Below, piece after piece: positions 15,897-28,048 of a stretch of 64,000 nt of DNA (position 1 is the stretch's first letter; each line of letters begins with the position of its first letter). Made by a program: the position numbers and the translations under genes. The notes under the pieces were generated by a model. It had not been told where the DNA came from and made no database searches. It worked only from the letters and a program-made list of their open reading frames with translations. The DNA is from Enhydrobacter sp. (GTDB lineage Bacteria; Pseudomonadota; Alphaproteobacteria; Reyranellales; Reyranellaceae), in contig CP075528.1 of NCBI GenBank assembly GCA_025808875.1, positions 1,610,473 through 1,674,472 of the forward strand, written 5' to 3'.

Positions 15897-17546
15897 ATGA
15901 GCTACTACGATCTCGGTGCCTATCGCCGTCCCGTCACCACCAAGTCGCCGGAAGCGCAGCTTTGGTTCGATCGCGGCCTGAATTGGCTCTATGGCTTCAA
16001 TCATGCCGAGGCGATCAAGTGCTTCGCCAAGGCCCTTGAGCACGATCCCGCCTGTGCGATGGCGCACTGGGGCGTCTCCTACGCCGCCGGCCCCAACTAC
16101 AATCTGCCGTGGCATCTCTACGATCCCGTCGGCAAGGGAAGGGCGCTCGCCACCGCCTACGATGCGCTGCAGGCGGCGTTGAAGGTCGCCGACACGGCCA
16201 CGCCCGTCGAGCAGGCGCTGATCCACGCCCTCGAGCTCCGCTATCCGCAACGCGAGCCGATCGACGATCAGTCGGAGTGGGACAAGGCCTTCACGCGGCG
16301 GATGCGCGAGGTCTTCGGCAGGTTTCGCGGTGATCCCGACGTGCGCTGCGTCTTCGTCGACGCGATCATGAACGAGACGCCGTGGCAGATGTGGGATCTC
16401 GGCACCGGCGGTGTCGCCGAGGATGCCGGCACCGCCGAGGCGGTCGAGGTCCTGGAGGCGGCCTTCGCCGATCTGCCGGGCTCGTGGGACCATCCCGGCC
16501 TGCTCCACCTCTACGTCCATCTGATGGAGATGTCGCCGTTCCCGCAGCGCGCGCTCAAGGCCGGCGACCGGCTGCGCGAACTGGTTCCCGATTCGGGGCA
16601 TCTGGTCCACATGCCGACGCACATCGACGTGCTGTGCGGCAACTATCACGACGTCGTCGTCTACAACCAGAAGGCCGTCGTCGCTGACCGCAAGTATCTC
16701 GCGCGCGAGGGCGCGATGAACGTCTACTCGCTCTATCGCAACCACAACCACCACTTCGTGGTCTATGGCGCGATGTTCCTCGGCCAGTACGAGCCTGCAA
16801 TCAAGGCAGCGCAGGAGCTCATCGACACCACGCCGGAAGAGGTGCTGCGCATTCCCTCGCCGCCGATGGCTGACTTCATCGAGGGTTTCTTCTCGATGAA
16901 GCAGCATGTCCTCGTGCGCTTCGGCAAATGGCGCGAGATCGTCGCCCAGGAATTGCCGAAGGACCGCGAGCTCTACTGCTCGACCACGGCGATGATGCTC
17001 TATGCCAAGGGGCTGGCGCACTCCGTCCTCGGTGAGATTCCGCAGGCGGAGAAGACGCGGGCGGCCTTCCTCGGGGCCAAGGCGCGCGTGCCGGAAACGC
17101 GGCGCGTCCACAACAACACCGTGTGCGATCTCCTGGAGGTGGCCGAGGAGATGCTGAACGGCGAACTCGAGTACCGCCGCGGCAACTTCGACCAGGCCTT
17201 CGCGCACCTGCGCCGTTCGGTCGAGCTCGAGGATGCGCTGCCCTACGACGAGCCGTGGGGCTGGATGCAGCCGACCCGGCATGCGCTCGGTGCGCTTCTG
17301 CTGGAGCAGGGACGCCTCGCGGAGGCGGAGGCCGTCTATCGCGCCGATCTCGGCTACGACGGCAAGCTCAGCCGCGCCTGCCAGCATCCCGACAACGTGT
17401 GGAGCCTGCACGGTCTGCATGAATGCCTGGTGCGGCGCGGCGACACGACCGAAGCACCGCTGATCAAGGCGCGACTCGATCTGGCACAGGCACGCGCCGA
17501 TACGCCGGTGCGCGCGTCTTGCCTGTGTCGGCGCGAGGCGGCGTAG
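15897..17546 (+). CDS. TPR-repeat protein with conserved histidine-rich motifs
   Basis: A 549-residue helical-repeat protein without signal peptide. TPR-like helices are seen at both ends (AEAIKCFAKALEHDPACAMAHWGVSYA near 40; LEYRRGNFDQAFAHLRRSVELEDA near 425). The centre holds histidine-rich stretches: HLYVHLMEM (about 203-211), GHLVHMPTHIDVLCGNY (about 237-253) and YRNHNHHFVVYGAMFLGQY (about 281-299). Similar GHxxHMPxH stretches occur in other bacterial TPR proteins of unknown role; clustered His could bind metal (inference). It stands alone after a hairpin, with GGGGGAG upstream of the ATG. The C-terminus CLCRREAA is Cys-rich. Confidence 0.82.
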   Translation: MSYYDLGAYRRPVTTKSPEAQLWFDRGLNWLYGFNHAEAIKCFAKALEHDPACAMAHWGVSYAAGPNYNLPWHLYDPVGKGRALATAYDALQAALKVADTATPVEQALIHALELRYPQREPIDDQSEWDKAFTRRMREVFGRFRGDPDVRCVFVDAIMNETPWQMWDLGTGGVAEDAGTAEAVEVLEAAFADLPGSWDHPGLLHLYVHLMEMSPFPQRALKAGDRLRELVPDSGHLVHMPTHIDVLCGNYHDVVVYNQKAVVADRKYLAREGAMNVYSLYRNHNHHFVVYGAMFLGQYEPAIKAAQELIDTTPEEVLRIPSPPMADFIEGFFSMKQHVLVRFGKWREIVAQELPKDRELYCSTTAMMLYAKGLAHSVLGEIPQAEKTRAAFLGAKARVPETRRVHNNTVCDLLEVAEEMLNGELEYRRGNFDQAFAHLRRSVELEDALPYDEPWGWMQPTRHALGALLLEQGRLAEAEAVYRADLGYDGKLSRACQHPDNVWSLHGLHECLVRRGDTTEAPLIKARLDLAQARADTPVRASCLCRREAA

Positions 17547-17834: not shown

Positions 17835-17918
17835 GCATTCCGGCAGAGAGTAGGCACACCATCCTGAGGGCGTCTCGGGCAGGTGCCCGCGACGTCGATT
17901 GTCCGGCGACACCCCACT

Positions 17919-17981
17919 GGAGGTTTGCGAGGTTTCCGAGGTTTCCGAGATCGATTTCCGCGATTTCCGCGATTTCCGCGA
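17919..17981 (+). repeat. 9-bp degenerate tandem repeat, cluster 2
   Basis: Starts GGAGGTTTGCGAGG, then GTTTCCGAG twice, then GATTTCCGC in three steps: about six 9-base units of the form GNTTTCCGN. The period is a multiple of three, so all six frames stay open and read as short amino-acid repeats, but no gene is supported. Confidence 0.7.
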
Positions 17982-18032
17982 CGGGGCGCACTCCACTCCA
18001 GGCGGCATCAGTTCCAGCGGAGCGGCCTTGCC

Positions 18033-21000
18033 CTAGAAGGAGAAGCGCACGCGCGCGCCGCCGACGGCCTGGAACTCGGTGCGGGAGAATTCGGTCTCGA
18101 GCTGCAGGCCGATCGTGGTGCGCTCGTTCAGGCGCACGTCGAAGCCCGCCGACAGTATGCCGGCGTTCATGTCGACCTGGCCCGAGGTCAACGCAAAGCC
18201 GCCCTGGGGCAGGTCGGTCAGCGACGCGGTGATGTTGGACTGGCGCACGAAGTAGTGCGCGTAGGCGGCTCGGGCGAAGGCCGAGGTCCCGAGGCCGAAG
18301 ACCGTGCCGAAGTAATTGACGCGTGCGCCGATTTCTCCCCGCGCCGTCATGTTGCTGCCGGCGAGCACGGAGACTCCAGCCGGCGCACCGTTGGACCATT
18401 CCTGGAAGTCGGGATTCCACACGATGCTGCCCTGCAGGGCGGCGCTCGGACCGAAGGTGAAGCCATCGACTCCGTAGAGGTCGACCATGCCTTCGAGGCG
18501 ACCGCCGAGGCCGTGCGTTCGGTACTGCGCCGCCACGTTGTATTGGCCGAGCACCGGAATCTGCCGGTTGGAGATGATGTCCATCGTCGCATAGGACAAT
18601 GCGCCGTTCAGCAGCCACGGTCCGGTCTGCATCTGCGCATAGGTGCCGGCCTGCAGCACTTCGGCGCGGATCGAGGACAGGCCATTGTCGGGCGAGCTCG
18701 ATGCCGAGCCGCCGGAGAAGGCGATACCGAGGCGCACGCCCGGCATCACGCCCTTGTCGAGGCCCACCGAGACGCCGCCAGCCGTGTCGGTGCGCGCGCC
18801 ATCGCCCGTGACTCGCCGCACCAGCCCGAGCGCGCCGATCCAGGCGGTGAGCGGATCGATTCCCATGTCGGGCGTGACGGGACCGAGCGCGCGCTCGTTC
18901 GCGTCGCAGGAGTCGGCCGACGCGCAGGTTTCCGCCGACGGCTGCGTCGCGCGCTGCACGGCGGCGTCGAAGATCACCCGCGTCGATGCGCGGTTGGGAT
19001 CGGTCAGGCTGGAGGTGAACTGTCCGCTGGTCAGCGAGCCCACGGCGCCGACATTGGCATGCACCGCGCCCGAGATCTGGTTGAGCGCCTGCGGCACCGC
19101 GTTGGCGGGCAGGTTGTAGAGCGGGAAGAAGGCCGACACGTTGGCACCCGATGCGACGGCCCGGTCGAGTCCCGCGGCGACGGCCGCCTGGTTCGGCGTC
19201 GGCGACGGGACGATCGGCACGATCGGGGTCGGCGCGAGGGAGAGATACACGTTGTTGGCGTCGTAGGTCACCGTCGGCACGATGCCGGCGCCGAAGGATC
19301 CACTGACCGACGAACTGGTGAAGCTGCCCGTGCGGCCGCCGGCGGCGGTCAGGACGGTGTAGGGGTTGTTGAACGTCGCGCTCAAGGCGACGACCTGCAA
19401 CGCGCCCGACACGGCTGCGCCGCCCGTGACGTTGACCCTGTCGGCAAGCGCGCCGTTAACCCGGATCGTCGTCGTCGAACCCGGGGCAAGCGTGAGGTTG
19501 CCGGCGATCTGCAGGGTTCCGATCGCGGCATTGCCGGCGGCGAGAAAGGCTCCGGCGGCAACGGTCGTGCTCGGCAACGTGCCGATGCCGCCGACCCGCG
19601 CGCCGCTCGCGACGGTGAGGTCGCTGGACGAGGCGATCGAGCCGTCGACCTGCAGCGTGCCCGACGTGACCGAGGTGGCGCCGCCGTAGGTGGACGTGCC
19701 GGTGAGCGTCGTCGTGCCGCTGCCGATGTGGTTCAGCCCGCCGGTGCCCGAGATCGCATTGGCGATCGACACGGTGTCGGAGCGGTTGATCTCGAGCATG
19801 GCATCGTTGACGACGTTGCCGGTGCCGAGCGAGCCGGTAGTGCCGCCCGCGCCGATGCGCAGCGTGCCGTCGGCGATGGTGGTGGTGCCGGAGTATGTGT
19901 TGTTGCCTGTCAGGGTCACGGTGTTCGACACCAGCTTGGTCAGCGCACCCGAGCCGGCGATGGCGTTGGCGATGGTCACGGCATCCGCGCGGTTGATCTG
20001 CAGCGTGCCGTCGTTGACGACGTTGCCGGTGCCCAGCGTGCCGCTGGTGCCGCCCGCGCCGATGCTCAGCGTGCCGCCGGAGATCGTCGTGGTGCCGCTG
20101 TAGGTGTTGGCGCCGGAGAGGCTGGTCGTGCCGGCGCCGATCTGCGCCACCGTTCCGGTCCCGGAGATCGCGCTGCCGACCGTCAGGCCGTTGGAACGGT
20201 TGAACACGAGATTGGCGCTGTTGGTCACGTCGCCGCTCCCCAGCGCGCCGCTGGCGCCGCCGTCGCCGATCTGCAGGGTGCCGCTGGAGATGGTGGTCGT
20301 GCCGTTGTAGGTGCTGTTGCCTGTCAGCGTCGTCGTCCCGGCGCCGATCTGGCTCACGCTGCCGGTGCCAGAGATGATTCCCGGCACGACCAGCGCATCG
20401 GCGCGATTGAACAGCAGGCTGCCGTTGTTGGTCACGTTTCCCGTGCCGAGCGTTCCCGAACCGCCTCCGCTGCCGACCTGCAGGGTGCCGTCGGCGATGG
20501 TCGTCGCGCCGGAATAGCTGTTGTTGCCGGTCAGGGTCACGGTGTTGCCGCCGAGCTTGGCGAGGGCGCCTGCGCCGCTGATCGTGTTGGCCACGGCGAT
20601 GTCGTCGGAACGGTTGAACGCCAGGGTTCCGGTGACTGCGACGTTGCCGGTGCCGAGGCTGCCCGCGGTACCGCCGGCGCCGATCTGCAAAGTACCCTCG
20701 GCGATGGTGGTGAGCCCGCTGTAGCTGTTGTTGCCGGTCAGCGTCAGGACGGTGTTGGTACCCGCCGCCGACTTGGTCAGCGCGCCGGTCCCGGAGATGT
20801 TGTTGGCGATCGTGAGGGCCGCGTCGCTACGGTTGATCTGCAGGATGCCGTCGTTGATCACGTCTCCCGTGCCCAGCGTGCCGGTCGTTCCCGCGGCGCC
20901 GACGACGAGGGTGCCGGCGGCGATGGTCGTGGCTCCGGTGTAGGAGTTGCTGCCGGTCAGGGTCGTGGTGCCGGAGCCCGACTGCGCCACCGAACCGCTG

Positions 21001-24000
21001 CCCGAGATGTCGTTGGCGACCGTCATCGCGTTCGACCGGTCGAGGACGAAATGGCCGTCGTTCGCGACCGCGCCGCTGCCCAGGCTGCCGGTAGTTCCGC
21101 CGCTGCCGATCGCCAGTGTGCCTGCCGCGATCGTCGTCGTCCCGGAATAGGTGTTGTTCGCCGTGAGGGTGAGGACGTTGCTGAGCAGCTTCTCGAGCGA
21201 GCCGGTGCCCGAGATCGCATTGGCGATCGAAAGGTCGTCGGAGCGGTTGATCGCGAGAGTGCCGTTGTTGGCGACGGCGCCCGTGCCGAGGCTGCCGCTG
21301 GTGCCGCCGGCGCCGACCTGCAGCGTGCCGGCCGAGATCGCCGTCGTGCCGGAATAGCTGTTGTCGCCGGTGAGCGTCAGCACGTTGTCGAGCAGCTTGG
21401 CGAGCGAGCCGGTTCCCGAAATGGTGTTGGCGACCGAGATGTCGTCGATCCGGTTGAAGCGCAGGACTCCGCCGGTGGTGACGACCTCGCCGGTGCCGAG
21501 CGAACCCGTCGTGCCGCCGTCGCCGATCTGCAGCGTTCCCTCGGTGATCGTGGTGAGGCCGCTATAGCTGTTGTTGCCGGTGAGCGTCAGGACGGTATTG
21601 GTACCCGCCGCCGACTTGGTGAGCGCGCCGCTGCCGGACAGGTTGTTGGCGATCGTGAGGGCGGCGTCGCTACGGTTGATCAGCAGGGTGGCGTTGTTCA
21701 CCACGTCGCCGGTCCCGAGTGTTCCGATCGTGCCGCCGGCGCCGACGCTCAGCGTGCCGCCCGTGATCGTCGTGACGCCGGTGTAGCTGTTGGCGCCGGT
21801 GAGGCTCGTGGTGCCGTCGCCGAGCTGCGTCACGGTGCCGGAGCCCGAGATCGCGCTGGCCACGGTGAAGGCGTTGGATCGGTTGAACAGCAGGCCCGCG
21901 TCGTTGACGGTGGCGCCTCCCCCGAGCGCGCCCGTCGTGCCGCCATCGCCGATCTGCAGCGCGCCGCCGGCGATCGTGGTGCCGCCGGAGTAGGTGTTGG
22001 CGCCGGTCAGGACGGTGGTGCCGCCGCCGATCTGGCTCACCGCGCCGACGCCGGAAATCGCGCCGGACACCGTCAGCGCATCCGACCGGTTGAAGAGCAG
22101 GCTGCCGGCGTTGGCGACGGTGCCGCCGCCGAGCGAGCCCGACGTGCCGCCGTCGCCCAGTTGCAGCGCGCCGCCGACGGCGATGCTGGTCGCGCCCGTG
22201 TAGCTGTTGTCCGCCGTCAGGGTCAGGGTGTTGGTGCCCTGCTTGCTCAACCCGCCACTGCCCGAGATCTGGTTGGCGACGGCGATGTCGTCGGAGCGGT
22301 TGAAGGACAGCGTCGCGTTGTTGACCACGTCGCCGGTGCCAAGCGAGCCGATGGTGCCGCCGGCGCCGATCGCGAGGGTTCCGGCCGAAATCGTCGTGGT
22401 GCCGGAGTAGCTGTTGCTGCCGGTCAGCGTGACCGTGTTGCCCAGGAGCTTGCTGAGATTGCCCGAGCCGGAGATGTCGTTGTCGACGGTGAAGGCGTTG
22501 GTGCGGTTGAACTGCAGGGTGGCGTCGTTGATCACGGCGCCGGTCCCCAGGGTGCCGGAACTGCCGCCCGCGCCGAGGCTCAGAACGCCGTCGGCGATGG
22601 TCGTCGTGCCACTGTAGGTGTTGGTTCCCGTGAGGCTCGTGATCCCGCTGCCGATCTGGCCGACGCTGCCGCTGCCCGAGATCGCGCTCGCCACGGTGAG
22701 CGCGTCGGAGCGGTTGAAGAGAAGATTGCCGGCGTTGGTGGTGGCGCCGGTCCCGAGCTGTCCGGAGGTGCCACCACTGCCGATCTGCAGGGTGCCGTCG
22801 GCGATGGTCGTCGCGCCGGAATGGGTGTTGTTTCCGGTCAAGGTCACGGTGTTGCCGCCGAGCTTGGCGAGGGCGCCCGCGCCGCTGATCGTGTTGGCAA
22901 TGGCGATGTCGTCGGACCGGTTGAAGGCGAGGGTTCCGCTTACCGCGACGTTGCCGATGCCGAGGCTGCCGGTGGTGCCGCCGTCGCCGATCTGCAGGGT
23001 GCCTGCGGTGATCGTCGTCGTGCCGGCGTAGCTGTTGTCGCCGGTGAGCGTCGCGGTGCCGGCTGCCAGCTTGGTGAGGCCGCCGGATCCCGAGATCTCG
23101 TTGGCGATGGCGATGGCGTCGGAGCGATTGACCTGCAGCGTGGCGTTGTTGACGACGTTGCCGGTGCCGAGGGTCCCGGCCGTGCCGCCGGCGCCGACGC
23201 TCAGGATGCCGGCATCGATGGTCGTGGTGCCGCTGAAGCTGTTCGTTCCGGTCAGGCTCGTCGTGCCCGTTCCGGCGTGGGTCAGGGTGCCGGTGCCGGA
23301 GATCGAGCTCGAAATGGCGAGCGAACCCGTGCGATTGATCACAAGGGCGCCGTCGTTCGTGGTGGCCCCGGTGCCGAGCTGGCCCGCGCCGCCGCCGGCG
23401 CCGATCTGCAGCGTGCCGGTCGAGATCGTGGTGGTGCCGGAGTAGGTGTTGGCGCCCGTCAGGGTCGTCGTGCCGGATCCGGCCTGGCTGACGTTGCCCG
23501 TTCCCGAGACGACGTTGGCGACCGTCATTTCGTCGGAGCGATTGAAGACGAGGATCGCGTTGTTCGTGACGCCCCCGGTGCCGAGGCTGCCCGAGGTGCC
23601 GCCGTCGCCGACCTGCAGCGTTCCCTCGGTGATCGTGGTGATTCCGGAATAGGTGTTGTTGCCGGTGAGCGTCAGCACGTTGTCGAGCAGCTTGCCGAGC
23701 TGGCCCGTGCCGGTGATGGTGTTGGCGACCGAGATGTCGTCCGAGCGGTTGAACTGCAGGATGCCGCCCGACGTGTTGACGTTTCCCGATCCCAGGCTGC
23801 CAGTGGTGCCGCCGTCGCCGATCCGCAGCGTGCCCTCGGTGATCGTCGTCGTGCCGGAGTAGCTGTTGTTGCCCGTCAGGGTCAGGACCGTGCTCGTGCC
23901 GGCCGTCGTCTTGGCCAGCGATCCGGTGCCCGAGATGTCGTTGGCGACGGTGACGTCGTTCGAGCGGTTGACCTGGAGGATCGAGTTGTTGACGACGGCA

Positions 24001-26255
24001 CCGCTGCCGAGGCTGCCCGTGGTGCCGCCGGCACCCACGCTCAGCGTCCCGGCCGAGATCGTCGTCGTGCCGGTGTAGGTGTTGTCCCCGCTGAGGCTGG
24101 TGGTGCCGGTGCCGGCCTGTTCGACCGTGCCGCTGCCGGAGATGGCGCTGGCGACGGTCAGCGCGTTGGAGCGATCGAACACCAGGACGCTGTCGTTGGT
24201 CGTCGCGCCGGTGCCGAGCTGGCCGGTCGTGCCGCCGTTGCCGATCTGCAGCGTGCCGTCGGCGATCGTCGTGGTGCCGGAATAGGTGTTGTTTCCGGTG
24301 AGGATCGTCGAGCCGCTGCCGATCTGGCTGACGTTGCCTGTGCCCGAGATGACCCCGCCATGGGTGATCGTGTCGGAGCGGTTGAAGACGAGGTCGCCGC
24401 TGTTGGACACGTTGCCGCCGCCGAGCATACCCACCGTGCCGCCGTCGCCGACCTGCAGGGTGCCGGCCGAGATCGTGGTCGTGCCGCTGTAGGTGTTGTT
24501 GCCGGTGAGGGTGACGACGTTGTCCAGCAGTTTGCCGAGGCCGCCCGTTCCCGTGATCGTGTTGGCGATCGAGATGTCGTCGGAGCGATTGAACTGCAGC
24601 GTGCCGCCCGACGTATCGACGCTGCCGCTGCCGAGCGAGCCCGTCGTGCCGCCGTCGCCGATGCGCAGCGTGCCTTCGGTGATCGTGGTCGTGCCGCTGT
24701 AGGTGTTGTTGCCGGTGAGCGTCAGGACGGTGTTGGTGCCGGCGCCGGTCTTGGTCAGCGCGCCCGATCCGGAGATGTCGTTGGCGATGGTGGCGGCGTT
24801 CGATCGGTTGATCTGCAGCACGCCGTCGTTGACGATCGCGCCGGCGCCGAGCGTCGCGGTCGTGCTGCCGGTGCCGGCACCGAGCTGCAGCGTGCCGTTC
24901 GATATCGTCGTCGTGCCGGTGTATGTGTTGACGCCGCTCAGGCTGGTCGTGCCGCTGCCGACCTGGGACACCGTGCCGCTGCCGGAAATGGCGCTCGACA
25001 CCGTGAAGGCGTCGGAACGGTTGAACAGCAGGCTGCCTTCGTTGCTGGTCGCGCCCGTGCCGAGCGTGCCCGTCGTGCCGCCATCGCCGATCTGCAGTGT
25101 GCCGTTGGCGATCGTGGTTGCGCCGGAGTAGGTGTTGGCGCCGGTCAGGGTCAGCGCGTTGGCGCCCTGCTTGTTGAGCTGGCCGGTGCCGGTGATGTTG
25201 TTGGCGACCGAGATGTCGTCGGACCGCTCGAACCGCAGGATGCCGCCCGATGTCACGACGTTGCCCGTTCCGAGCGAGCCGGTCGTGCCGCCGCTGCCGA
25301 TCTGCAGCGTGCCCTCGGTGATGGTGGTCGTGCCGGCATAGCTGTTGTTGCCGGTCAGGACCAGGGTGGTGTTGGTGCCGGCGTTGGATTTCGTCACCGC
25401 GCCGGTGCCCGAGATGTCGTTGGCGATGGTGATCGTGTCGTCGCTGCGGCTGAACAGCAGCGTCGCATTGTTGACGACGTCGCCGGTGCCCAGCGTGCCG
25501 GTCGTGCCGCCGCTGCCGATGCTCAGCGTGCCGGCGCTGATCGTCGTGGTGCCGCCGTAGCTGTTGTTGCCCGTGAGCTGGGTCGTGCCGGCGCCGAGCT
25601 TGGTGACGGTGCCGCTGCCCGAGATGGCGCTGGCGACCGCCAGCGTGTTGGAGCGGTTGAACAGCAGGCTGCCGTCGTTGACCGTGGCGCCCGATCCCAG
25701 CCCGCCCGTCGTGCCGCCCGCGCCGACGCTGAGCTGCGCGCCGCTGGCGATCGTCGTTCCTCCCGAGTAGGTGTTGTTGCCGGTGAAGGTGACGTCGGCG
25801 CCGGTGATCGCGGTGGCGCCGCTGCCCGAGATCACCGGCGCGAGGCCGATGGCGCTTGCCCCCGATGCGGTGAGCGTCGATCCGGCGCCCAGCGAGAGCG
25901 TGCCGGCGCCTAGCACGGAGGCGTTCGAGATGTCGAAGGCGGTCTGCACGGTGAGCGTGCGGGTCGAATTGATCGTCAGCGAGCCGGCAGTGATGCTGAC
26001 CGTGCCGATCGTGAAGCTGCCGGCGATGATGGGCTGGTTGGCGCCGTCGGCGTTGAAGATCGCGCTGTTGCCCGCGCCCGGCACCGTGCCGGTGCTCCAG
26101 TTGGCGCCGGTGCCGTAATTAGTGCCGGTGTAGAGCCAGGTCGATTGGGCGAGCGTCTCCGTCGCGCCCAAGGGGAGCGCGCACATCGCTGCGGCAAGGC
26201 CCTGCGCCTTGCGGCGTCGACGCTTGGCAGCCCGCGTTATGGATCGTTTTCTCAT
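18033..26255 (-). CDS. Giant autotransporter adhesin-like protein with 30 passenger repeats
   Basis: A 2740-residue type V-secreted protein. A long basic signal peptide (about 1-37, ending ETLAQ) leads to a short beta-rich head, then 30 copies (my count) of an autotransporter-associated beta-strand repeat with core LTGNNTYSGTTTI-GTLQIGDGGTTGSLGTG, period about 70 residues (about 158-2200). A low-complexity linker PTPIVPIVPSPTP follows, and residues about 2460-2740 form the C-terminal beta-barrel ending in RVRFSF with the terminal Phe expected for BAM recognition. The passenger should fold as a long beta-helix on the cell surface. Some units are 3 residues longer (AGTNTVLTLTGNNSYSG) and recur at regular intervals, showing block duplication. 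It is monocistronic with an AT-rich upstream region. No protease or known ligand-binding motif was recognised. Confidence 0.93.
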   Translation of the reverse strand: MRKRSITRAAKRRRRKAQGLAAAMCALPLGATETLAQSTWLYTGTNYGTGANWSTGTVPGAGNSAIFNADGANQPIIAGSFTIGTVSITAGSLTINSTRTLTVQTAFDISNASVLGAGTLSLGAGSTLTASGASAIGLAPVISGSGATAITGADVTFTGNNTYSGGTTIASGAQLSVGAGGTTGGLGSGATVNDGSLLFNRSNTLAVASAISGSGTVTKLGAGTTQLTGNNSYGGTTTISAGTLSIGSGGTTGTLGTGDVVNNATLLFSRSDDTITIANDISGTGAVTKSNAGTNTTLVLTGNNSYAGTTTITEGTLQIGSGGTTGSLGTGNVVTSGGILRFERSDDISVANNITGTGQLNKQGANALTLTGANTYSGATTIANGTLQIGDGGTTGTLGTGATSNEGSLLFNRSDAFTVSSAISGSGTVSQVGSGTTSLSGVNTYTGTTTISNGTLQLGAGTGSTTATLGAGAIVNDGVLQINRSNAATIANDISGSGALTKTGAGTNTVLTLTGNNTYSGTTTITEGTLRIGDGGTTGSLGSGSVDTSGGTLQFNRSDDISIANTITGTGGLGKLLDNVVTLTGNNTYSGTTTISAGTLQVGDGGTVGMLGGGNVSNSGDLVFNRSDTITHGGVISGTGNVSQIGSGSTILTGNNTYSGTTTIADGTLQIGNGGTTGQLGTGATTNDSVLVFDRSNALTVASAISGSGTVEQAGTGTTSLSGDNTYTGTTTISAGTLSVGAGGTTGSLGSGAVVNNSILQVNRSNDVTVANDISGTGSLAKTTAGTSTVLTLTGNNSYSGTTTITEGTLRIGDGGTTGSLGSGNVNTSGGILQFNRSDDISVANTITGTGQLGKLLDNVLTLTGNNTYSGITTITEGTLQVGDGGTSGSLGTGGVTNNAILVFNRSDEMTVANVVSGTGNVSQAGSGTTTLTGANTYSGTTTISTGTLQIGAGGGAGQLGTGATTNDGALVINRTGSLAISSSISGTGTLTHAGTGTTSLTGTNSFSGTTTIDAGILSVGAGGTAGTLGTGNVVNNATLQVNRSDAIAIANEISGSGGLTKLAAGTATLTGDNSYAGTTTITAGTLQIGDGGTTGSLGIGNVAVSGTLAFNRSDDIAIANTISGAGALAKLGGNTVTLTGNNTHSGATTIADGTLQIGSGGTSGQLGTGATTNAGNLLFNRSDALTVASAISGSGSVGQIGSGITSLTGTNTYSGTTTIADGVLSLGAGGSSGTLGTGAVINDATLQFNRTNAFTVDNDISGSGNLSKLLGNTVTLTGSNSYSGTTTISAGTLAIGAGGTIGSLGTGDVVNNATLSFNRSDDIAVANQISGSGGLSKQGTNTLTLTADNSYTGATSIAVGGALQLGDGGTSGSLGGGTVANAGSLLFNRSDALTVSGAISGVGAVSQIGGGTTVLTGANTYSGGTTIAGGALQIGDGGTTGALGGGATVNDAGLLFNRSNAFTVASAISGSGTVTQLGDGTTSLTGANSYTGVTTITGGTLSVGAGGTIGTLGTGDVVNNATLLINRSDAALTIANNLSGSGALTKSAAGTNTVLTLTGNNSYSGLTTITEGTLQIGDGGTTGSLGTGEVVTTGGVLRFNRIDDISVANTISGTGSLAKLLDNVLTLTGDNSYSGTTAISAGTLQVGAGGTSGSLGTGAVANNGTLAINRSDDLSIANAISGTGSLEKLLSNVLTLTANNTYSGTTTIAAGTLAIGSGGTTGSLGSGAVANDGHFVLDRSNAMTVANDISGSGSVAQSGSGTTTLTGSNSYTGATTIAAGTLVVGAAGTTGTLGTGDVINDGILQINRSDAALTIANNISGTGALTKSAAGTNTVLTLTGNNSYSGLTTIAEGTLQIGAGGTAGSLGTGNVAVTGTLAFNRSDDIAVANTISGAGALAKLGGNTVTLTGNNSYSGATTIADGTLQVGSGGGSGTLGTGNVTNNGSLLFNRADALVVPGIISGTGSVSQIGAGTTTLTGNSTYNGTTTISSGTLQIGDGGASGALGSGDVTNSANLVFNRSNGLTVGSAISGTGTVAQIGAGTTSLSGANTYSGTTTISGGTLSIGAGGTSGTLGTGNVVNDGTLQINRADAVTIANAIAGSGALTKLVSNTVTLTGNNTYSGTTTIADGTLRIGAGGTTGSLGTGNVVNDAMLEINRSDTVSIANAISGTGGLNHIGSGTTTLTGTSTYGGATSVTSGTLQVDGSIASSSDLTVASGARVGGIGTLPSTTVAAGAFLAAGNAAIGTLQIAGNLTLAPGSTTTIRVNGALADRVNVTGGAAVSGALQVVALSATFNNPYTVLTAAGGRTGSFTSSSVSGSFGAGIVPTVTYDANNVYLSLAPTPIVPIVPSPTPNQAAVAAGLDRAVASGANVSAFFPLYNLPANAVPQALNQISGAVHANVGAVGSLTSGQFTSSLTDPNRASTRVIFDAAVQRATQPSAETCASADSCDANERALGPVTPDMGIDPLTAWIGALGLVRRVTGDGARTDTAGGVSVGLDKGVMPGVRLGIAFSGGSASSSPDNGLSSIRAEVLQAGTYAQMQTGPWLLNGALSYATMDIISNRQIPVLGQYNVAAQYRTHGLGGRLEGMVDLYGVDGFTFGPSAALQGSIVWNPDFQEWSNGAPAGVSVLAGSNMTARGEIGARVNYFGTVFGLGTSAFARAAYAHYFVRQSNITASLTDLPQGGFALTSGQVDMNAGILSAGFDVRLNERTTIGLQLETEFSRTEFQAVGGARVRFSF
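19680..25785 (-). repeat. Passenger-coding tandem array, ~210-bp units x 30
   Basis: Thirty in-frame units inside the autotransporter gene, mean spacing about 210 bp (204-216). Units are diverged, not identical. Five long units containing VLTLTGNN(S/T)YSG or close variants map near 20.73, 21.57, 23.87, 24.70 and 25.35 kb; four of the spacings correspond to 4, 11, 4 and 3 units, which indicates duplication of multi-unit blocks. Confidence 0.85.
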
Positions 26256-26423
26256 TTGGGCTGTAGAATGAAAATCTACAGCGCCGGTGCGATTACTCCA
26301 AGTGCCTGAAATTAAACAGTGTTTACAACCAATTAGATAGTAATTTAGTTACAATCCTGCGATAGCGCATATCTGGCCGCGAAATTGAGCAGAATTGTCA
26401 TCCAGATGACACGGCGAACTTTC
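26256..26423. promoter_or_regulatory. AT-rich divergent-looking spacer upstream of the autotransporter
   Basis: 168 bases, distinctly AT-rich (for example AAATTAAACAGTGTTTACAACC and TAGTAATTTAGTTACAATCC, 26308-26355) against a GC-rich background. It separates the autotransporter start from the stop of the minus-strand PhyH gene, so it most likely carries the autotransporter promoter. The AT richness also fits a region bound by a nucleoid protein or of foreign origin. Confidence 0.55.
26261..26281 (-). promoter_or_regulatory. Hairpin/dyad just upstream of the autotransporter start
   Basis: CTGTAGA, 7 bases, TCTACAG: a perfect 7-bp inverted repeat ending 5 bases before the ATG (26255). In mRNA it forms a stem-loop over the place where a ribosome site is expected; no clear Shine-Dalgarno lies between it and the ATG. 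It may act as an operator or as a translation-controlling RNA hairpin. Confidence 0.55.
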
Positions 26424-27176
26424 TCAAGCGCGGCGTCGGAAGAACAACCACGGGTCGCGCATGAACGCATCGCGCGCGGCGTCGCGCATCGGCGGATCGC
26501 AAAGCTGCAAAGCGGCGCGCCGCTGGAAGATCATGTCGCGCCTGACGCCACAGGTGTTCATCGACGTGCCGTGCGCGAGAAAGCTGTGGGCGACGATGAC
26601 GTCGCCGGCCGCGAGTCTCGGTACGACCATCCGGGCCTCGTCGAGCAGCGCTTTCTGGCCCGCGATCTTCACTTCGCCCCAATTCACCTCGCCGGCCGGT
26701 TGCCCTGCGAACAACGTGGCGAAGCGGTGATGCGATCCGGGCAGGACATGAAAGCCTCCCACCGTATCGGATTCGACGTCGGTCAACGCGACGCCGAACA
26801 ACGCGTTGAACGCGGCGAGCGACGGCGCCTGGCCGCCGTCGATATGGAAGTGCCGGCCGACGATGCCCTTGGTCGCGAAGCCCGGCATGGTCGAGGCGAG
26901 CTGGATGCGCTCGGGCGCGTGCACGGTTTCCAGGATCTCGGCCGCCAGCGGATCGAGGGCGCCTTCGACGAGTGCCACGAAGTCGGGGTGCCGGCAGTCG
27001 CGGATCTCTCTCCACGATTCGTTCCTGCTGCGCTCCCAGCCGCCCTCGGGATGGACCGCGTTGATCTGCGCCGCCGTCACTTGCGCGCGACGCAACAGGC
27101 GGGCGTCGACACCGCGGGAAACGACGGTGTAGCCGTCGCCGATGAGCTCCTGCCAGTTCGTGTTCGAAAAGGCCAT
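26424..27176 (-). CDS. Phytanoyl-CoA dioxygenase (PhyH) family protein
   Basis: A 250-residue Fe(II)/2-oxoglutarate-dependent oxygenase. The metal triad is His111-x-Asp113 (HFHIDGG) and a distal histidine in AHSFLAHGTS (197 or 202), followed by an Arg (VRRDM) suited to 2-oxoglutarate. GGFHVLPGSHH at 140-150 is the typical loop. PhyH relatives hydroxylate varied small molecules. It is divergent from the HD-domain gene over about 110 bases; no obvious pathway partner. Confidence 0.88.
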   Translation of the reverse strand: MAFSNTNWQELIGDGYTVVSRGVDARLLRRAQVTAAQINAVHPEGGWERSRNESWREIRDCRHPDFVALVEGALDPLAAEILETVHAPERIQLASTMPGFATKGIVGRHFHIDGGQAPSLAAFNALFGVALTDVESDTVGGFHVLPGSHHRFATLFAGQPAGEVNWGEVKIAGQKALLDEARMVVPRLAAGDVIVAHSFLAHGTSMNTCGVRRDMIFQRRAALQLCDPPMRDAARDAFMRDPWLFFRRRA

Positions 27177-27286
27177 GCGGCGATTCTCGGAGGATCGAGG
27201 CGCAATGTCTACGGCGCGGCCGGTCGCCCGGTGCTAGGTTCCGCCAAAGACAGGCGGCCGGACGAAGGCCGATGGAAGGGATGGAC

Positions 27287-28048
27287 ATGACCGACGCTCA
27301 AACCTTGTCGCAGCGGGCTGATGCGCTCGAAGCCAGGATGGCGCGCGAACTCGATCTCATCGTCGTCAAGTCGAGGCTTCACAGTCTGGCCGAGGGCGAC
27401 ATGAGTCCACCGCGGAATGCCGGGGCGTTGATGAAGGCCAATCCGAACGCGCGCGTTCTGATGGGCGACGATCCGCGACTTCCGGCGATGCCGGAAAAGC
27501 CGACGTTGATCGATTTCTTCAAGTATCGCTTCGGGCCCTCGATGCACTTGCTGCAAAGCGCGCGGCACGCGGTGACGGCCGGGTTGCCCGAGAAGATGGT
27601 GCTGGCATGCCTGCTGCACGACATCGCCGGCGTGGGCTTCATCCGCGGTGACCACGGCTACTGGGGAGCACAGCTCGTCGAGCCCTATGTCGATCCGGAA
27701 GTGACATGGGCGATCCGCGCCCATCAGGTGCTGCGCTTCTATCCCGACGAATCGGTCGGCTACGAATACCCCCAGTCCTACGTTGCCCTGTTCGGCGCCG
27801 ACTATCGGCCTGATCCCTACATCGACGAGGACTACAGGCGCATGCGCGATCACAAGTGGTACATGTCGGGCCGGCAGATCACCGTGCACGACATCTATTC
27901 GTTCGATCCCGATCTTCATGTCGAGTTGGCGGAATTCACCGACATCATCGGCCGCAACTTTCGCCAGCCAGCGCAGGGACTCGGCTACGACAACAGCCCC
28001 GTCGCGCACATGTGGCGGGCGATGATCCGACCGGCGAAGTACCTCTAG
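27287..28048 (+). CDS. HD-domain-like protein, putative phosphohydrolase
   Basis: A 253-residue protein with an HD-like core: SARHAVTAG, then LACLLHDIAGVG (about 105-116) and WAIRAHQVLRFYPDES. HD proteins bind divalent metals and often hydrolyse phosphates, although some, such as myo-inositol oxygenase or PhnZ, are oxygenases. Three in-frame ATGs exist (27272, 27281, 27287); the last is chosen because GGAAGGG (27274-27280) sits 6 bases before it. Its stop overlaps the stop of the convergent MDR gene by three bases. Confidence 0.75.
   Translation: MTDAQTLSQRADALEARMARELDLIVVKSRLHSLAEGDMSPPRNAGALMKANPNARVLMGDDPRLPAMPEKPTLIDFFKYRFGPSMHLLQSARHAVTAGLPEKMVLACLLHDIAGVGFIRGDHGYWGAQLVEPYVDPEVTWAIRAHQVLRFYPDESVGYEYPQSYVALFGADYRPDPYIDEDYRRMRDHKWYMSGRQITVHDIYSFDPDLHVELAEFTDIIGRNFRQPAQGLGYDNSPVAHMWRAMIRPAKYL

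Follow-up and report, generated by a model that had tools for sequence, protein, structure and literature searches.

A giant Reyranella autotransporter carries a cyclic order of four PATR unit types that recurs across species, and a mosaic 3' end

Introduction

Repeat arrays on bacterial surfaces are mostly described as young, identical, and unstable. Periscope proteins, for example, are defined by highly identical tandem repeats, whose number varies among strains in many of them (PMC9704523). Autotransporters built from PATR units are already known to vary in repeat number, as in ShdA, and such variation has been linked to high DNA identity of the repeats (PMC9704523). A 64,000-nucleotide stretch of a Reyranella genome (hereafter, the window; source genome a single 5.19 Mb contig) contains one very large reading frame that consists mostly of diverged tandem repeats. 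This locus raises the question of how such an array was built, and whether it should be regarded as a recent, unstable expansion or as an old structure with an order of its own.

Gene Organization and Predicted Structure

The reading frame on the minus strand (18033-26255) encoded 2,740 amino acids and contained no internal stop codons (Table 1). A Pfam scan of the full protein returned PATR alone (PF12951; 29 matched stretches, E 4.7e-194), and a separate scan of the C-terminal 554 residues returned an autotransporter beta-barrel (PF03797, E 2.9e-30). In public genomes, the nearest named relative was a Reyranella MAG (68% over these 554 residues). Read by eye, the N-terminus showed an Arg-rich start followed by a hydrophobic stretch and ...TLAQ. 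An AlphaFold2 model of the C-terminal region comprised a cap, a helical linker, and a beta-barrel, the last of which matched EstA, EspP, NalP, and BrkA in Foldseek. Two features of type Va secretion, a C-terminal PF03797 beta-barrel and a beta-solenoid passenger with PATR, were found, and the protein is predicted from sequence and models to be a classical (type Va, monomeric) autotransporter.

Table 1. Features of the autotransporter gene, with positions in the window.
Feature	Position	Strand	Basis
Type Va autotransporter gene, 2,740 aa	18033..26255	-	Open frame; PF12951 x29; PF03797
N-terminus (aa 1-159), with an Arg-rich start, a stretch that looks like a signal peptide by eye, and the beginning of the passenger	25779..26255	-	59-67% identity with G081, G026, G019
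Unit W01 (type D)	25569..25778	-	Unit cutting; type by eye, leave-one-out
Block W02-W04 (A B D; without C)	24933..25568	-	Unit cutting, type analysis
Block W05-W08 (A B C D)	24087..24932	-	Unit cutting, type analysis
Block W09-W12 (A B C D), modelled with AlphaFold2	23247..24086	-	Type analysis; collinear with G010 X05-X08
Block W13-W15 (A B D; without C)	22626..23246	-	Type analysis; G010 X09-X11 likewise without C
Block W16-W19 (A B C D; W17 uncertain)	21795..22625	-	Unit cutting, type analysis
Block W20-W23 (A B C D; W22 uncertain)	20952..21794	-	Unit cutting, type analysis
Block W24-W27 (A B C D)	20112..20951	-	Unit cutting, type analysis
W28 (A) and W29 (end unit, type uncertain; pairs with G010 end unit)	19698..20111	-	Putative translocator exchange at or near here
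Solenoid cap / autochaperone-like region, aa 2187-2342	19230..19697	-	AlphaFold2 model; region identities
Helical linker, aa 2343-2469	18849..19229	-	AlphaFold2 model, low confidence in part; region identities
Beta-barrel translocator, aa 2470-2740	18036..18848	-	PF03797; AlphaFold2 and Foldseek to EstA, EspP, NalP, BrkA

Structure prediction, which a preliminary description of this locus had suggested as a check, was performed on one four-unit block (W09-W12) and yielded a regular, all-strand AlphaFold2 model (mean pLDDT 93.9) with a strand period of 69-70 residues. Each unit would correspond to about three solenoid coils, as read from strand spacing and the PATR family rather than from inspected coordinates, and at the usual 4.8 Å per coil the 29-unit passenger would be roughly 40 nm long. 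In Foldseek, the solenoid block had no significant match among solved structures (best E 0.6). A profile search of the PDB identified 8e7f (Ssp) and 5ke1 (IcsA) as genuine solved relatives; short matches to 'Pizza' proteins in a PDB sequence search were judged to be composition artefacts.

The NCBIfam model for ShdA (NF011847) aligned to the array at 770 bits, well below its equivalog cut-off of 2249 bits, so that the protein does not qualify as an equivalog of ShdA. Based on the ShdA and Ag43 families, the passenger would most likely act as a long adhesive or self-associating cell-surface stalk; no adhesin domain or experimentally studied relative was found in support of a specific function.

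Order of the Repeat Units

When the conserved NNTYSG motif was used to divide the passenger, 29 complete units of 69-74 amino acids were delimited (aa 160-2186, window 25778-19698), with partial PATR-like motifs at both ends. Identity between units averaged 58% at the amino-acid level and 67% at the nucleotide level, with maxima of 90 and 85%, respectively. Five units (W02, W05, W09, W20, and W24) belonged to a long type with the motif T[NS]T[TV]L[TV]LTGNN, present as exact TNTVLTLTGNN in three of them and as variants in the other two. This long type is simply the most visible member of a system of four types. These types, A to D, were first assigned by eye and gave the unit order D-ABD-ABCD-ABCD-ABD-ABCD-ABCD-ABCD-AB, in which type C is absent from two blocks. 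Leave-one-out profiles recovered the assigned type in 26 of the 29 units (misses: W17, W22, and W29). Shared indels marked the types, with a 3-residue insertion in A and an extra Gly in B, and at one and the same position A and B mostly carried Lys where C and D mostly carried Gln. Amino-acid identity was 0.665 for same-type pairs versus 0.549 for different-type pairs, a difference of 0.116 as compared with a maximum of 0.060 in 20,000 label permutations.

The order was also evident from an analysis independent of type labels, in which the similarity of unit pairs at each offset was compared with that obtained when the order of the units was permuted 5,000 times. Similarity peaked at offsets 4, 7-8, 11, 15, and 18-19, with significant troughs at 2, 5, 6, 9, 10, and 13. 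At offset 4, z was 5.1, a value as high as which was found in no permutation; offsets 11 and 15 gave 4.4 and 3.8, and offset 1 gave -1.2. The higher-order pattern is well beyond chance, and similarity is highest at a multi-unit offset rather than between neighbours (4 versus 1), as in a higher-order repeat.

The preliminary description had counted 30 copies of a unit of about 70 residues, in close agreement with the units and partial end motifs found here, and the spacing that it gave for the long type (4, 11, 4, and 3 units) was recovered when units were read in plus-strand order. The duplication of multi-unit blocks that it had proposed was supported beyond the original claim, the entire array following a four-unit cycle. 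Its accompanying suggestion of unit-by-unit growth did not hold for the window array, in which adjacent units were no more alike than random pairs. Near-identical block copies, as would result from recent homogenisation, were not found in the array, same-type units being 72% identical at the nucleotide level.

The interval of 11 between long A units amounts to 4+3+4, since within-type similarity was independent of offset (0.675, 0.673, 0.669, and 0.676 at offsets 4, 7, 11, and 15, respectively) and the A units W13 and W16 were without the long-type insertion. An 11-unit super-block (3+4+4), duplicated once over the four-unit cycle, would instead place the two blocks that lack C exactly 11 units apart. 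Units W02-W12 and W13-W23 indeed each read ABD-ABCD-ABCD, offset 11 had the high z mentioned above, and the pair with the highest nucleotide similarity, W14/W25, was separated by 11 units. However, W14/W25 falls outside the frame that relates W02-W12 to W13-W23, and same-type pairs at offset 11 were no closer than those at 4, 7, or 15. A separate super-block level, for which offset 11 showed no added within-type similarity, was rejected, and the super-block explanation is considered distinctly unlikely; given the position of the blocks without C, a single 11-unit copying event is possible but unsupported.

Related Arrays in Other Reyranella Species

Sixty-five genomes of the genus, one per species, were searched with W05-W12 as query. 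Arrays of the window-type unit were detected in several Reyranella species, their best stretches matching at 67-69%. A similarity peak at offset 4 was found in homologs from G026 (z 5.7), G080 (4.8), G076 (4.8), G019 (3.9), G081 (3.5), and G010 (3.4); the G010 array additionally showed z of 5.5 at offset 8, and G063 gave a signal at offsets 8 and 16. Stretches of eight units were collinear between species when compared with permuted unit order, with z of 7.9 for the window versus G010 and p <= 0.002 versus G081, G026, G019, G063, and G080. Window units W09-W16 were collinear with G010 units X05-X12. The block without C, W13-W15, falls within this stretch, and its loss of C therefore seems to be older than the split between the window and G010. 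Type profiles trained on the window revealed cyclic order in several homologs, with a result that was not significant for G010 (p 0.07).

A tree was built from 97 units that came from four species, based like all unit trees on 69 columns and with few forks resolved. On it, the type of the window units required 5 changes, as compared with a mean of 16.2 and a minimum of 11 after shuffling, and species required 49 changes versus 53 when shuffled. The units thus appear to cluster by type and hardly by species. Since the cycle recurs in collinear form across Reyranella species and units group by type rather than by species, the blocks are older than the present species.

When double-length spacings in homologs were taken as two units, unit number was about 22 in G026, 28 in G081, and about 39 in G080 (truncated contig), as compared with 29 in the window. 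The G010 homolog (L099, C608) contained an 8-unit block duplication (z 5.6 at offset 8), in which X01-X03 and X09-X11 were up to 90% identical at the amino-acid level, as well as a run of similar units near the end of its array. Contig C608 runs end to end inside the array, and both C608 and C363 end within it; the two probably represent one split homolog gene. The four-unit cycle was not found in other giant PATR proteins, from G036, G022, G033, G012, and G077 (up to 7,806 aa), and neighbour similarity dominated in most of the other giant Reyranella proteins of this family. Among these proteins, L069-L070 (G036:C49) encoded 7,806 aa with 77 PATR motifs and L071 (G022:C1) encoded 6,409 aa with 61, in each case without a clean four-unit cycle.

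Divergence of the Array

At residues shared between units, codon agreement was 0.66 for same-type pairs and 0.63 for cross-species orthologs, whereas independent codons would be expected to give 0.61. This comparison indicates that silent sites between units are near saturation and that the array is old and diverged. Exact repeats of at least 40 nt were absent from the window array. The array resembles periscope proteins in forming a predicted surface rod of tandem repeats but differs in the divergence of these repeats: the highly identical DNA repeats of that class were not found, the maximum being 85% nucleotide identity.

A recently expanded, unstable array of the periscope kind would undergo slippage and recombination among strains, leading to length variation and assembly errors, both of which the preliminary description had anticipated. 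Unit number does differ between species, from about 22 to about 39. Moreover, G010 carries its 8-unit duplication, the fragmented G010 assembly did break inside the array, although the window array is without long exact repeats, and the PATR repeats of ShdA vary in number (PMC9704523). In that study, however, number variation was tied to high DNA identity of the repeats, which the window units do not approach. Because silent sites are near saturation, no exact repeat reaches 40 nt, and unit order was kept across species, strain-level slippage and misassembly are not supported. A recent expansion of the window array was rejected on the near-saturated silent sites, and an unstable array of this kind is very unlikely. 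Neither the predicted variation in length among strains nor a proneness to misassembly was therefore borne out by the sequence; the differences in number that were observed lie between species.

Despite the near-saturated silent sites, type-specific residues were retained, as read from the comparison of codon identity rather than from a codon model, and the types recur across several species. These two observations would also be expected if the four types reflected a structural rhythm, in which selection for a period of four produced like units by convergence or gene conversion, instead of descent from old blocks. Common descent of blocks nevertheless fits the shared indels of types A and B and the collinear cross-species orthologs better. 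In addition, C is missing from two blocks without any other change in order, and other giant PATR proteins show no such period. A purely structural origin of the types is consequently regarded as improbable, and common descent of blocks is preferred. Retention of type-specific amino acids while silent sites approached saturation makes it probable that the four positions cannot substitute for one another.

Probable Exchange of the Translocator

Over its first 159 residues, the window protein shared 59-67% identity with its homologs from G081, G026, and G019. Identity with homologs of this other type was 44-48% in the cap, 25-31% in the linker, and 23-27% in the barrel, as compared with 71, 64, and 71%, respectively, with G010, the only species with which the window shared its translocator type. 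For G081 and G026 taken alone, identity with the window protein was 60-67% in the N-terminus, 45-47% in the cap, 25-31% in the linker, and 24-27% in the barrel. As a control, G081 and G026 were 76, 74, and 79% identical in cap, linker, and barrel, and identities of G081 with three other homologs of its type were 67-90%. The gene is mosaic at its 3' end: because the N-terminus and array match the other-type homologs while the barrel is only about 25% identical, one translocator type appears to have been swapped for another. Unit W29 paired with the G010 end unit (80% nucleotide identity) and W28 still resembled units of the other-type homologs, which places the junction at or near the last unit, with weak evidence for its exact point. 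A tandem array would be a natural site for recombination of this kind.

Rapid evolution of the barrel, confined to a single lineage, could in principle mimic this contrast, as the domains of a two-domain protein can evolve at unequal rates and the window barrel is still recognisable as PF03797. However, barrels were 71% identical between the window and G010 and 72-83% among the other-type homologs, values comparable with those of their N-termini and caps, whereas identity between the two groups was about 25%. The end unit, moreover, switches along with the barrel. Unequal rates are therefore given little credence here relative to recombination.

Proposed Origin and Related Systems

The following account of the locus as a Reyranella type Va autotransporter with old four-unit block copying, later block turnover, and 3'-end replacement is considered likely. 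Four PATR units that already differed (A, B, C, and D; together about 830 bp) would have been copied several times as a block, before the divergence of the present species, and C would have been lost from two of the copies. Silent sites would afterwards have drifted to near-saturation, with retention of the residues that set A, B, C, and D apart. Later, multi-unit blocks may have been gained and lost between species, and recombination at or beside the array may have replaced the 3' end, from the end unit through cap and linker to the barrel. The product would be exported via Sec, and its passenger would emerge as a 29-unit beta-solenoid after insertion of the C-terminal barrel into the outer membrane. 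A bolder proposal, rather unlikely when its parts are taken jointly, is that the four types are functionally distinct, with a cycle held by selection that sets solenoid faces in a regular rhythm, and that the array served as the recombination site that moved the passenger to a very different translocator.

Blocks of alpha satellite are near-identical. Like alpha satellite and the NBPF/Olduvai triplets (PMC9584774), the window array consists of a multi-unit block in fixed type order, with unit-deleted variants; it differs in being bacterial coding sequence with about nine blocks, about 72% same-type nucleotide identity, an apparently old age, and no homogenisation. Secretion anatomy, a PATR solenoid passenger, and a PF03797 barrel are all common to the window protein and to ShdA of Salmonella, IcsA, and Ssp. 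The repeats of ShdA, however, number 4-6 and vary (PMC9704523), whereas the 29 units of the window protein follow a conserved cycle of four types. Self-associating Ag43 autotransporters undergo domain shuffling between variants (PMC10058404) and thus likewise exchange autotransporter modules; in the window gene, by contrast, the putative junction falls at or alongside a long tandem array, and identity between the translocator types is only about 25%.

A literature search that covered few subscription journals found no paper linking autotransporters with 'higher-order repeat', which is weak evidence of novelty. The sole paper found with both 'Reyranella' and 'autotransporter' appears to be an estuary community study. 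The protein class is ordinary; the four-type arrangement and the exchange of the outer-membrane anchor between relatives appear to be undescribed. In contrast to the arrays usually discussed, the multi-unit order of this one survived species divergence, which makes separate roles of unit types, and arrays as points of exchange between passenger and translocator, open to testing. The range of unit numbers also provides a comparative series in which the length and order of the stalk can be set against lifestyle, in an environmental genus that has received little study.

Genomic Surroundings

In a synteny comparison, the genes flanking the autotransporter in the window were shared with none of the homologs. 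The flanking TPR (15897-17546) and HD (27272-28048) genes were adjacent in G087 and G078, which represent empty sites without the autotransporter. In G005 and G067, the space between the TPR and phytanoyl-CoA-dioxygenase-like genes was occupied by a gene identified by eye as that of a sugar-transporter substrate-binding protein. As the flanking genes elsewhere enclose nothing or other genes, the autotransporter occupies a variable chromosomal slot. Plasmid copies of the gene were not detected by megablast.

Upstream of the autotransporter, a phytanoyl-CoA dioxygenase-like gene (PF05721) was located at 26424-27176 on the minus strand; larger overlapping reading frames in this region look spurious. 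On the plus strand, an antisense frame of 2,676 codons (17883-25913) lay in codon register with the autotransporter and had no Pfam match. An antisense gene was rejected as an explanation: antisense stops require TCA, TTA, or CTA codons, which are nearly absent from the autotransporter (0, 0, and 1, respectively, versus about 22 expected from codon use in other genes), and the frame is open for that reason. A perfect inverted repeat of 8 bp (GCTGTAGA...TCTACAGC) was present at 26256-26283 (minus strand), where it follows a locally AT-rich stretch and ends a few bases before the start codon; the corresponding hairpin was not seen in homologs and was only weakly stable relative to shuffled sequences (z -1.6). 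Just past the stop codon, at 17920-17981, two 9-bp tandem repeats (GAGGTTTCC and CGATTTCCG) occurred in about 3.3 copies each.
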